From Dioscorea cayenensis subsp. rotundata (lineage: Eukaryota > Streptophyta > Magnoliopsida > Dioscoreales > Dioscoreaceae), in the NCBI RefSeq assembly GCF_009730915.1, contig NC_052475.1, forward strand, positions 28,085,016 through 28,149,015: a stretch of DNA of 64,000 nt. The letters run 5' to 3'. This document shows, piece after piece, positions 20,384-44,575 of the stretch (position 1 is its first letter; every line of letters starts with the position of its first letter). The translations under genes were made by a program, and so were the position numbers. The notes beneath the pieces were generated by a model. That model searched no databases and was not told the DNA's origin. It was given only the letters and a program-made list of their open reading frames with translations.

Positions 20384-23300
20384 ATATATATATATATATA
20401 TTTTAAAAAGTGGATAAACCACATCTATTAGCATAAAAGACAGTACACCAAAAAACAACATGGAAGCCCACTAGATGTGGAACACCAAAAACAAAATACA
20501 AAACAGAGACAAATCGTCTCCACAAGACCACTAAGGCCGCAAAGGCCTCAACATGAGCCCACTGGCCAGCACTTTGATCCACAATCACCTCAGAGGATGC
20601 CCCCCCCCAGTCTCCTCTGCAAGTGCATCAGAAAACTCCAAGCTCCGTCGCACAATCAACATAGATCCCTCAATCTTCTACTTACCACCATCAGAAGCTG
20701 CTGAGAACCAGGATAAGAGCATATGATTAATCTTAACATATAGAGAGTGAACAAGAATCACAGAGGCATTAAAAATGCAATCATTTTGAGCAAACCAAAT
20801 ATTCCACACAACTGCCTTAACCACTAGGTCCCACATAACTCTAAACGATGATATTAACAAAGATCTCCAACCACTCTAGACCAAAGTCAAGGACTTGGGA
20901 GGGTCTGGCAGCTGCAGAAATCTCCCAAAGAAGGCCCACACCTGCCTAGCAAAAGTGCAATGTAAGAACAAGTGGTCAGTAGATTCCAAGTCTAAATAAC
21001 ATAACACACATGTTGCCATAGGCAGACAATTGCAACGACGCTTTGCTAGATTAGCCAGGGAAAGAATTTTATGCTTCCACGCAAGCCAATTAAGCAGATT
21101 AACTTTCTTTGGGCACCAACTACTCCAAAAGAACTTCACAATCGGGCATCTCAATCCACCATCGATAATGAAGTTATAGAAAAATTTAACTGGGAAGATT
21201 CATTTGCAGAAAGACACCAACATTTCTGATCAAACCGAGAATCACAAGTGGCCCTAACTGACTCCCTAATGTGTCGCATAGCCAAATTATCACTAAAGGG
21301 AGGTCTCTCCAATAAATAAGCAAGCTCACTGAATGTCCCATTTGGATGATGACTCGCAATAAAATCCTCCGGCCACAAGAACCGAGGAGCACTACCATTC
21401 AGCCAATTATCCTTCCAAAATAGAGTTTCTCTCCCCGTTAAGATAGTGTGCTGAATACAACCTCTGAAAGCTGGTAGACAGTTAAGAACACCTTTCTAGA
21501 AGTAAGAGATTCGACCTTTGTACTTAGGGAACATGTTCCACCGGGATCAACCATAATTAAATTGGATGACTGCAGTACCACACTAATCGGGTGTCAACAT
21601 GAACTTCCACCACCATTTCCTCAGAAGGACCTGATTGAACCTGTCCAGGTCAAGTATACCCCACCCCCTTGATCCCGAGGACGACACAAGTTTTTCCAGC
21701 AAACTAACCGACAGCTCAGTTGGTCAATATCTGGCCCCGATCAGAGAAAATCCCTCCTAATTTTATCAATATGCTTGATCACCCAACATGGCAATCTGAA
21801 CAACGACATCTAATAAGTGGGTAAAGCCGTAAGCACAGAGTTGAAAAGCGTAAGTCTACCCCCCAATGAGAGGTAACTAGCTTTCCAAGTCGAGAGTCGT
21901 CTCCTAATCTTAAGAAAAAGCCCTTCCCAGTCCTGCTTGCGCGGCCTTCGTCCAGAGATGGGGATACCAAGATAAGTGACCGGAAGCGTACCCACCGCAC
22001 AATTAAGAGTAAGAGCCGCAGCAACCTCCGGTAGTTTACCAATTTTGCTCGAGAACAGACATGTTTTATCAAAATTGGTCTCCAAACCAGTCAAGTCCTC
22101 AAACACATAGAGCATCACTTTCACCACCCTAAGGTCTTCAAGGCCCCCCATGATCAGGATTAGCAGATTATCAGCGTAATGAAGGTTACACCTACTACCA
22201 AACTCCCCAAGAGGAACCCCCACAAGCACTTTGGTGTTTAGAGCATGAACAAACATGGAGTTGAGCACATCCATCACCAGGGCAAAGAGCATAGGAGATA
22301 GCGGGTCACCCTGACACAGACCTCTTTAGTACTGAATATAACCGTTAGGGGATCCATTGATAAGAATCGAAGCCTTCGAAGTGGTAAGTAAACATTGGAT
22401 CCAACCCACACATCTCCTACCAAACCCTCTTGTTAGTAGTAAGTCCCACAGAAACTCCCAGTCCACAGTATCAAACACTTTAGCAAAGTCCACCTTTAGG
22501 ATATGCCCAGATGAACAGTGTCTGTTCATACTAAAAATCAACTCCTCTGTATTGGCAATATTATCTAGGATGCATCTTCCTTTCATGAAGGCTGATTGCT
22601 CACTTTCAATTAACCGATTCAAGACTTTAGAGAGCCGGGAGGCCAACATCTTAGAAATAATTTTCAGGATTGAGTTGATTAAGCTGATAGGACGGAAATC
22701 CCCGAGAGACTCCGGAGTGTCCACTTTAGGAATGAGAGTTAAACTTGCCCAGTTGATTCTTTCTAAATTAACCTTTCTATCGAAAAAGTCCACACAAAGT
22801 TTCCACAAATCATCCTTGGTCAAATCCCAGAATTCCCTAAAAGAGAGCAGTGGAAAACCATCCAGACCTGGCGCCTTGTCATGTCCTAATTCAAATACCG
22901 CCAATATCTGCTCATCAATCGTAAACGAACTCTCAAGATGAGAGAGGTCCACGGGAGGCTTGAAGGCAAACAATCTCCTAAGATCCACATGAATACCCGT
23001 CGATCTCTTGCTACCAAAGATCTTATTAAAGTGAGCCGCAAAAGCCTTGCCTAAATCCCGTAGCTTCTCAAGAAGGGCACCATCGACCTGTAAGGAGGAA
23101 ATAAAGTTCCTGTTCTTACGCCAATGCATTTGCCACCGCATGAAAAAATTTTGAATTTTCATCACCCTCCTTAAGCCATTGCAATTGTGATCGCTGCTTC
23201 CAATAGATCTCCTCCTGATTCCTAATTACAGTTAGGTTCTCCGAGATAGAAAGCTCCTGTTTCAACTCAGCAGAAGACAGTTCCCTAGCCTCCTTGACCA

Positions 23301-41666: not shown

Positions 41667-41675
41667 CCTATAAAA
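41667..41675 (+). promoter_or_regulatory. Putative TATA box of the cysteine-rich Pmp3 gene
   Basis: CTATAAAAC about 90 bases upstream of the ATG at 41758, a suitable distance for a leader of about 60 bases. The leader ends in a (TA)n run that directly touches the start codon. Confidence 0.5.
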
Positions 41676-41757
41676 CCAAGAACCATTACTCCTTATCTTC
41701 GCCTCATGCATTTCCTCTCTTAGATAAATAAACAAGTATATATATATATATATATAT

Positions 41758-42340
41758 ATGGCCTTCAAGGATTTTCTTTCTTTCATATGTTGTCCATTTA
41801 GAATGTGTTTAGATATAACCAAGTGTTGTTGCTCTATATGTGAAAACACAAACAAAGTTTGTACCAAATTGTCTACTTGTTCTTGCAACTTATGTACAAA
41901 CACAACCATATGTTGTTCAAATGTTTGTGAAAAAACCGGCAAATGTAGCGGCAAACTCTGCGAAACCACCTGCTCATGTTGTGCTGATTGTTGCACAAAG
42001 TTGTACTCACTTTGTTGCAGTGCAGATGTATGGATGCAAATATTCTCTTGTTGTAACTGCTGTTGCCCAAACGATACTGGGGATGGGGATCAAAGCTCAG
42101 GTGCCATGGCAGTGATATTAGCAACACACTTCCCACCAATTGGAGTCTTCACTAAATATAAATTTGGGGTACGTAGTTTACTTAATCTTCTAGCTCTTCT
42201 ATATATATATATAATTACAATGCAAATGAAAAAAATTTCTCCTTAATTTGTTGTTGCAGATAGAGTTCTGGATCTGTTTATTGTTGACAACCATTGGCTA
42301 CTTGCCAGGAATGTTTTATGCTATCTATATCTTATCCTGA
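41758..42340 (+). CDS. Cysteine-rich N-terminal region fused to a Pmp3/RCI2 membrane domain
   Basis: Two exons, 41758-42168 and 42260-42340, joined in phase 0 through a GTACGT donor and TTGCAG acceptor, give 163 residues. Residues 1-118 hold 28 cysteines, many as CC or CCC, in irregular repeats of the form C-x2-3-C-x5-6-C (CSICENTNKVC, CNLCTNTTICC, CSNVCEKTGKC). Residues about 117-163 are a Pmp3 (UPF0057/RCI2/LTI6) domain: VILATHFPPIGVFTKYKFG, then IEFWICLLLTTIGYLPGMFY and AIYILS, with two hydrophobic segments. Plain RCI2/LTI6 proteins are 52-60 residues long, help hold membrane potential, and are induced by cold and salt. Here the Pmp3 part follows a long Cys-rich, metal-binding-like or disulfide-rich region with no signal peptide that I can recognise. 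The intron position within Pmp3 (before the IEFW segment) supports a real spliced gene. Function of the N-terminal part is unknown. Confidence 0.85.
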
Positions 42341-43152: not shown

Positions 43153-44575
43153 TTAAAGGAGGATTAACCACTTAAATTAAAGAAGAAAATCCTGAAACAA
43201 GAGACGAACCACAAGACACAAGAACATGACATACCACTAGATGTGGTACAAACCAGAACAACAAACCAAAATAAACAGGGTCAGATGACCCAAACAACAA
43301 AGAGAATCCAAAACAAGAAACAGAGTCTAAAGACAGACATTAGATCAGGTCCAAAAACACTAGCCCGTGTGCTGCTCACTAGCCTCCTCAGCAGTCAAGA
43401 CCTCGTTGGTCTCCTCCGCACGCTGATCAAGGAACTTCAGACTGTGCCTGATAGCAAGGGCGTAGTCTTCAAACTTTCCTCTAGCTCCCTCAACAATCAC
43501 TGTAAACCAGGAAAAGATCATCCGATCACATTTCATAATAATATCAGCAGCATGCACAACATTAGCATTAAAGATGCGATCATTTCGAGCAAGCCAAATA
43601 TTCCAAATAAGAGCTTTCATAATCCAAACCCCCACATCCTGGATCCACGTCTGTAAACGAGATCTCCAAGAAACCCAAATTAAGTAGCTCAATAGTATCG
43701 GAGGTTCCGGCAAATGTAACAATCTAACAAAATATTTCCACACGTGTTTAGCAAAGGAGCAATGGAGGAACAAATGATCCACTAATTCAATCCCCGCGTG
43801 GCAAAAAACACATGTGGCAGTTGGCAGCTTATTAAAACATTGCTTTTCCAGATTTTCAAGAGTAAGAATTTTGTTCTTCCAAGTTAACCAATTGAAGAGG
43901 TTAACTTTCCGCGGGTAATTGTTGCGCCATAACCAACTGGAAATTGGACATTGTAGGCCCCCCTCATTCAGGAAATTATAGAAGGATTTCACCGAGAAAA
44001 CCTCATTCGCCATGTGAGTCCACCATTTCGTATCTTTGAGCATTCCCCAATTTGCGGAAAAACATTCCCAGAAAGAACTCAACTCAACGTTGCCCAAAAA
44101 AGGAGAATTATCAAACAAAAAAACCAAGTCCTTGATAGTGCCATTTTGAAAGGATGATTCCCTGAAAACCTTTGGCCACAAGAGCATTGGTGCTCGGCTA
44201 TTGAGCCACCAATCTTTCCAGAAGAGGGACTCAGTACCATCATTAATGCCTTGCGTTATGCAACTCCTCAGTACCGGTAGACAGATAGACACCCCTTTCT
44301 AGAAGAACGAAATCCTCCCCACATGCCTAGGAAATAAGTTTCAATTGGAGATGTTATAGGTAAATCTGATCACAGTCGCACCACAACATTGAGGGCCCGT
44401 TGAGAATTTCCACCACCACTACCCCAGCAGAGCCTTATTAAAGACTTTTAAGTCAAGAATACCCCACCCACCTTACTCACGAAAGTGACCCAGATTCTTC
44501 CAACCCACTAACCTAAAATTTTTCTGGAGATCAGGACCGGACCAAAGGAAGTCACGCCTATAACTTCTACAACAT
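43153..44575 (-). mobile_element. 5'-truncated L1-like LINE with an intact 310-residue zf-RVT frame
   Basis: The minus-strand frame 43360-44292 is open for 310 residues and holds the post-reverse-transcriptase region. It reads ESLFWKDWWLN, SVKSFYNFLNEGG, then the zinc-binding motif TCVFCHAGIELVDHLFLHC, WNIWLARNDRIFNAN, and a C-terminal segment. Upstream to about 44570 is the last part of the reverse transcriptase (RRDFLWSGPDLQ, GGWGILDLK) with a stop. The 3' UTR holds CCACATCTAGTGG and ends TGGTTAATCC plus an A-rich tail at 43153. A 12-bp direct repeat flanks it. It lacks the polymerase, so it cannot move by itself; the open frame suggests a fairly recent insertion. Confidence 0.88.

Follow-up and report, generated by a model that had tools for sequence, protein, structure and literature searches.

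The gene described here lies in a window of 64,000 nt from Dioscorea cayenensis subsp. rotundata (C5:28085016-28149015; the genome comprises 584 Mb in 2,249 contigs). The ORFs tested in the window are of plant type: a B-box protein, a condensing enzyme of the FAE1/CUT1 type, a PMEI, a lipid transfer protein and LINE-like pieces. An earlier note, made from the DNA alone, had proposed that two exons join in frame to encode 163 residues. Both the coordinates and the splice sites of this model were confirmed from the sequence: exon 1 (41758-42168) and exon 2 (42260-42340) are in frame and give a predicted protein of 163 residues, and the intervening intron begins with GT (42169-42170) and ends with AG (42258-42259), as judged by inspection. 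The features of the locus are as follows.

41668..41675, + strand: candidate TATA box, CTATAAAA, from a pattern scan; about 90 bases 5′ of the start codon
41758..42168, + strand: exon 1, residues 1-137, encoding the cysteine tail, the acidic linker and the first hydrophobic segment of Pmp3
41788..42066, + strand: cysteine region, residues 11-103, with 28 cysteines and internal repeats of 11 and 29 residues
42073..42105, + strand: acidic/Ser linker DTGDGDQSSGA, residues 106-116, part of which is kept in the related gene on C7
42106..42337, + strand: Pmp3 domain (Pfam PF01679), residues 117-163, interrupted by the intron
42169..42259, + strand: intron 1, GT-AG, between codons, by inspection; an ordinary Pmp3 gene on C7 has its intron at this place too
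42260..42340, + strand: exon 2, including the stop codon
42355..42444, + strand: candidate second intron (GTATAT...GGCAG), 3′ untranslated, by inspection; weak

Several other elements surround the gene. An ORF with a Brf1-like TBP-binding domain (PF07741; 40216-40839, + strand) lies directly upstream, and a zf-RVT stretch that appears to be a LINE-like remnant (43363-44298, − strand) lies about 1 kb downstream. Another LINE-like remnant, a reverse transcriptase domain spread over two frames, is found at 21813-23225 (− strand). In the presumed 5′ leader, an ATG at 41706 opens a five-codon ORF (41706-41723, + strand) in a different frame from the main start, and a stretch of (TA)n (41737-41759, + strand) reaches the start codon. 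A search of the window against Rfam gave no match at the gathering score.

Reading frame, cysteine content and Pmp3 domain

The predicted protein contains 29 cysteines, 28 of them within the 93 residues from 11 to 103; the earlier count of 28 cysteines in the first 118 residues was thus correct. The extension that precedes the Pmp3 domain is 116 residues long and 24% cysteine, and its N-terminal position is the one that defines Group III and 'PMP3-like' proteins. To ask how often such a frame arises by chance, we compared it with first-order Markov sequences modelled on the same DNA. These contained 10.2 ± 3.0 cysteines per 106 codons, with a maximum of 24 in 20,000 sequences, as against 28 here, and only 0.5% of them remained open. 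Among the 37 stop-to-stop frames of at least 100 codons in the window, the runner-up has 9 cysteines per 100 residues. A chance open frame is ruled out by the Markov control together with the other frames of the window. A simple DNA microsatellite was also considered as the source of the cysteines and rejected, since the TA run ahead of the start codon is the sole repeat that Tandem Repeats Finder lists.

The C-terminal end of the protein carries a complete Pmp3 domain, as had been noticed previously: residues 117-162 match positions 3-48 of the 49-position Pfam profile PF01679 (E 3.3e-15), with a score of 56.3 bits against a curated cut-off of 22.9. The intron falls between codons, separating FG from IEFW, and in the ordinary Pmp3 gene at C7:29077607 it separates CG from VEFW at the same place. 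The protein ends in YAIYILS and lacks the hydrophilic, charged C-terminal tail of group II RCI2 proteins, which is described as about 20 residues beyond the second hydrophobic segment (PMC8775908). The loop differs from that of the four ordinary copies compared, in which a GC pair is present (FGCH, YGCG, YGCC and HGCC); in their place, the two tailed genes, the one in the window and the one on C7 described below, carry YKFG and HKLG.

By contrast with the Pmp3 domain, the tail resembles no catalogued family. Residues 1-116 matched none of the families in a 24736-model Pfam library, metallothioneins included, at E values up to 10, a setting at which the HMMER filters still drop most weak matches. 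A zinc-finger-like CxxC design was considered for the tail and set aside on the same result. The C7 protein likewise matches no Pfam family except Pmp3. A sequence search of the PDB with the window protein returned nothing convincing, the one match having an E value of 0.28; the same search with an ordinary Pmp3 copy returned PscF (E 0.0047) and one unrelated-looking match (E 1.4).

A second tailed gene in the same genome

A Pfam search of the whole genome gave nine exon matches, which correspond to seven Pmp3 loci, and the tail is present at two of the seven. The copies on C12 and at C7:29077607 are ordinary Pmp3 genes, and those on C9 and C3 have charged C-terminal ends and are group II-like. 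At C15:19000044 there is an ordinary-looking Pmp3 whose exon 1 is split across frames and which is perhaps a pseudogene. The second tailed gene lies on the minus strand at C7:374421-375071. Neither the complete window protein nor its N-terminal 116 residues retrieved this gene when used as protein queries against the genome; it surfaced in the Pfam family search and was then confirmed by a search from its own side. Because the protein searches missed it, counts of relatives given here are lower bounds. Pattern scans for relatives gave no matches in viral contigs and 32 in prokaryote contigs, none of which was confirmed; such contigs could hardly hold plant genes.

The C7 gene has its intron at the same codon boundary as the window gene, and its Pmp3 match scores 51.6 bits. 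A candidate GT-AG intron just before a stop codon roughly corresponds to the possible 3′ untranslated intron of the window gene. If it is used, the predicted protein has 189 residues and 38 cysteines, 37 of them in the tail; without it, the frame runs to 217 residues and 40 cysteines. The C terminus is uncertain, since this intron may or may not be used.

The window and C7 proteins are 42% identical over 158 residues (E 6.6e-33). Aligned on their own, the two tails score 213, as against 105 ± 11 for 3,000 composition-matched shuffles (z 9.6, a value inflated by the loss of internal repeats in the shuffles). A cysteine of the C7 tail is aligned with 20 of the 28 in the window tail, partly by chance, as both tails are about one-quarter cysteine, and identical residues include the motifs CPFxMC, CCxSxCE, WxQ and DxGD. 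The number and spacing of the cysteines differ between the two genes. Conservation of the cysteine region was one of the checks named in the earlier note, and it holds to this extent, between two paralogues. The idea that another gene of the same architecture should exist is likewise borne out within this genome, which is the range of the comparison.

Over 161 codons, the two genes differ with pS 0.73, dS 2.6 and dN 0.59, so that synonymous divergence is at or near saturation. The cysteine region taken alone gives pS 0.80 and dN 0.69, and the linker with the Pmp3 domain gives pS 0.61, dS 1.25 and dN 0.43. Because the synonymous sites are at or near saturation, the tailed design is old and has been retained, with both frames having stayed open for a long time. 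We also considered a recent segmental duplication. This was rejected, since the only matches (E up to 1e-6) between ORFs of the window and those of a 40 kb region surrounding the C7 gene fall in the gene itself and in LINE-like stretches. The synonymous sites at or near saturation, together with surroundings on C7 that hold no other shared ORFs, argue for an old duplication. When the Pmp3 domain is compared by itself, the tailed pair is 57% identical and the window gene is also 57% identical to the ordinary gene at C7:29077607. Hence, it is the shared tail, rather than the Pmp3 domain, that groups the tailed genes.

A fragment of the gene is present on C16 (C16:3693379-3693633), where the sequence is 88% identical to window positions 42006-42256, covering part of exon 1 and most of intron 1. 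Its frame is broken by one inserted base. Only 5 of the 12 coding substitutions between window and fragment alter an amino acid, as against 9.3 expected (P 0.004), and both substitutions inside cysteine codons are silent. This points to coding constraint in at least one of the two lineages. Once gaps are set aside, there are 12 differences over 163 coding places and 4 over 83 aligned intron places, so that exon 1 is not the slower part in this comparison. By eye, we had suspected a plant transposase beside the fragment; neither of the two short ORFs at that place has a match in Pfam.

Repeats of the tail and its possible roles

The cysteine repeats had been described as irregular, a description that needs to be revised. 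When all residues are considered, the window tail matches itself at lags of 11 (z 3.95) and 29 (z 3.94), and residues 24, 35, 46, 57, 68 and 79, which form one column of the 11-residue repeat, are cysteine throughout. For cysteine alone, the excess at lag 11 is not significant after correction over 39 lags (global P 0.11). The C7 tail matches itself at lags of 25 (z 13.2) and 50 (z 6.5), and includes three almost identical units of 25 residues (residues 31-105). Repeats of 11, 25 and 29 residues would span 3, 7 and 8 α-helical turns, with a deviation of no more than 2 degrees from 100 degrees per residue. This fit is suggestive only, because among the 23 lengths between 8 and 30 it is shown by 5, and because 11 and 29 come from one protein.

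The tails were also examined by Fourier analysis. Polar residues of the window tail peak at 98 degrees (global P 0.0008). When apolar residues and cysteine are pooled, the maximum falls at 98 degrees for the window tail (P 0.002) and 100 degrees for the C7 tail (P 0.003); the shuffles behind these values destroy the repeats. We also used a repeat-aware control in which the repeats were kept and only the columns permuted. With this control, P was 0.005 for polar residues and 0.06 for apolar residues with cysteine in the window tail, and 0.15 and 0.018, respectively, in the C7 tail. For cysteine alone, the peaks lie at 64 degrees (window tail) and 72 degrees (C7 tail), and significance is reached in neither tail with the repeat-aware control (P 0.19 and 0.15). 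The other apolar residues peak at 162 and 72 degrees, respectively, and the polar residues of the C7 tail peak at 144 degrees, with 100 degrees second. Peaks near 100 degrees are thus confined to the apolar-plus-cysteine sets and to the polar residues of the window tail, and the helix argument is weaker because the single-class periodicities are mixed. The AlphaFold model of exon 1, built from a single sequence, shows five helices in the tail, among them residues 20-30, 46-60 and 71-86; it is not used as evidence here, because its confidence is too poor (mean pLDDT 41.6).

The data described above lead us to favour, tentatively and as something short of a probable account, a combined reading of gene and tail. 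In this reading the window locus would be a true plant Pmp3/RCI2 gene, belonging to a subfamily whose N-terminal tail carries cysteine repeats, as judged from the sequence of its frame, domain, intron position, old second gene and repeats; and the tail would be an amphipathic helix in the cytosol, anchoring and sorting the Pmp3 protein by means of S-acylated cysteines. The tail would lie on the cytosolic face, beside the membrane-embedded Pmp3 hairpin, and would form at least one amphipathic helix, one face of which would hold the cysteines and other apolar residues and the opposite face the polar ones. The topology proposed for relatives offers some guidance: both termini of the C. elegans Pmp3 relative PMPL-1 are predicted to be cytosolic, with a monotopic fold favoured by the authors (PMC12136403), and Lys 19 of yeast SNA3 is placed in the cytosol (review PMC7835403). 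If the tail were placed likewise, its thiols would sit in a reducing compartment next to the membrane. There, they would stay reduced and within reach of S-acyl transferases, and many of them might be S-acylated to give a reversible, multi-point lipid anchor. Such an anchor could confine the Pmp3 protein to certain membrane domains or vesicles, and could in this way modulate the influence on membrane potential and trafficking that is reported for RCI2 proteins.

The main rival to the S-acylated helix, and a possible though doubtful one, is that the tail serves as a membrane-held thiolate trap for metals or other soft ions, as has been proposed for the Cys-rich part of rice DEP1. A density of 28 cysteines in 93 residues, with many CC, CxC and CxxxC pairs, would suit such a trap, as would a cysteine number that is high in both tails (28 and 37) despite their drifting positions. 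There is also a precedent, in that the Cys-rich C-terminal half of OsDEP1 is described as sufficient by itself to confer Cd tolerance on yeast and Arabidopsis, and a Cd trap was proposed (PMC3808331). However, the failure of the window tail to match even metallothioneins in Pfam, and of the C7 protein to match anything but Pmp3, counts against this rival, and a metal trap presumably does not need repeat lengths that resemble those of a helix.

A broader reading, which we regard as rather unlikely as a whole, is that the tailed genes form an undescribed, anciently duplicated plant Pmp3 subfamily in which a tandem-repeat amphipathic 'cysteine helix' acts as a reversible multi-acyl or thiol-redox/metal switch. 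Such a switch would allow stress chemistry, in the form of oxidants or heavy metals, to act by way of the Pmp3 hairpin on membrane potential or vesicle traffic.

It is improbable that the tail is a fast-evolving translated repeat of little function, with only the Pmp3 domain mattering. Turnover of repeats does appear to have occurred, since the units differ between the genes (11 and 29 residues in the window protein, three near-identical 25-mers in the C7 protein), and dN is higher in the cysteine region than in the linker and Pmp3 domain (0.69 versus 0.43). Nevertheless, 20 of the 28 cysteines, as well as CPFxMC and WxQ, are still aligned despite synonymous sites that are at or near saturation.

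A disulfide-folded tail facing the exterior or an organelle lumen is very unlikely: the even number of cysteines in the window tail (28) speaks for it, whereas the number in the C7 tail is odd (37), and PMPL-1 is predicted to have cytosolic termini. Least credible of all is translation from residue 117 to give an ordinary Pmp3 protein of 47 residues, for although the ATG at 42106 has a strong context (GCCATGG), the ATG at 41758 a weak one (T at −3) and a further ATG lies upstream at 41706, there are 12 other ATGs between 41758 and 42106, the pattern TATA[AT]A is absent from 41758-42105 and has one match at 41669, a Met is missing from the equivalent position of the C7 protein, and the tail is related in frame and amino acids between the two genes. 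The TATA-like box and the missing Met also speak against the start near residue 110 that the earlier note had named as a refuting result.

Comparison with known Pmp3 and cysteine-rich proteins

The precise mechanism by which RCI2/PMP3 proteins confer stress tolerance was described as unknown in a 2021 review (PMC7835403). A large, old and thiol-rich tail offers a handle on this question, in that deletion of the tail or changes to its cysteines could probe control by lipid anchoring, redox state or metals. Cysteine-dense stretches beside a membrane are also found in cysteine-string protein, which is multiply palmitoylated, and in CYSTM proteins, neither of which is known to have a Pmp3 domain. 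In rice DEP1, a class C G-gamma subunit, a very Cys-rich region is also described and has been proposed to trap Cd (PMC3808331); DEP1 is, however, not a Pmp3 protein, its Cys-rich part is C-terminal, and the likeness is one of composition as described.

Plant PMP3/RCI2 proteins have been sorted by their C termini into groups I and II (PMC6288971). The window gene shares with both groups the complete Pmp3 domain (PPIGV, EFWICL, GYLPG, YAIY), and its intron lies where an ordinary copy of this genome has it. It differs from them in length and in the side of its extension, since the Arabidopsis proteins have 52-64 (group I) and approximately 60-89 (group II) residues and group II is extended C-terminally (PMC6288971), whereas the extension of the window protein is N-terminal. 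In Brassica, 42 RCI2 proteins of 50-170 residues are reported, all but one of which contain only a PMP3 domain (PMC8775908).

N-terminal extensions do occur elsewhere in the family. Those of the Triticeae (wheat; Esi3-9), of 49-79 residues with a Val run followed by a Pro run, define a new Group III, which is described as absent from Arabidopsis and the other well-studied species; Eutrema has a single, dissimilar case (PMC6288971). For Esi3-9, the paper reports an abundance of hydrophobic residues in the extension, together with charged ones and the Val and Pro runs, and the word 'cysteine' is absent from the main text of that paper (PMC6288971). The window protein contains no run of five Val and five Pro; the comparison with Esi3-9 is one of published descriptions. 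The 'PMP3-like' proteins, cucumber CsaRCI2C and yeast SNA3 and SNA4, are said to have an N-terminal tail too (review PMC7835403); CsaRCI2C could be an orthologue of the tailed genes, the likeness being by description. Among the matches listed in the literature on Pmp3/RCI2, which mostly excludes subscription papers and supplements, a Cys-rich Pmp3 tail was not found. The remark in the earlier note that its author knew of no described family with this order of parts therefore stands for the cysteine-rich make-up, as far as the sources cover it, and needs to be qualified for the order itself, N-terminally extended Pmp3 proteins being described in wheat relatives and one being mentioned in cucumber. 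We conclude that the tailed genes, as predicted from their sequences, extend the known N-terminally extended Pmp3 proteins, that their Cys-rich make-up is new relative to the published descriptions covered here, and that this type of N-terminal extension joins Triticeae Group III in a family that is usually sorted by its C terminus.
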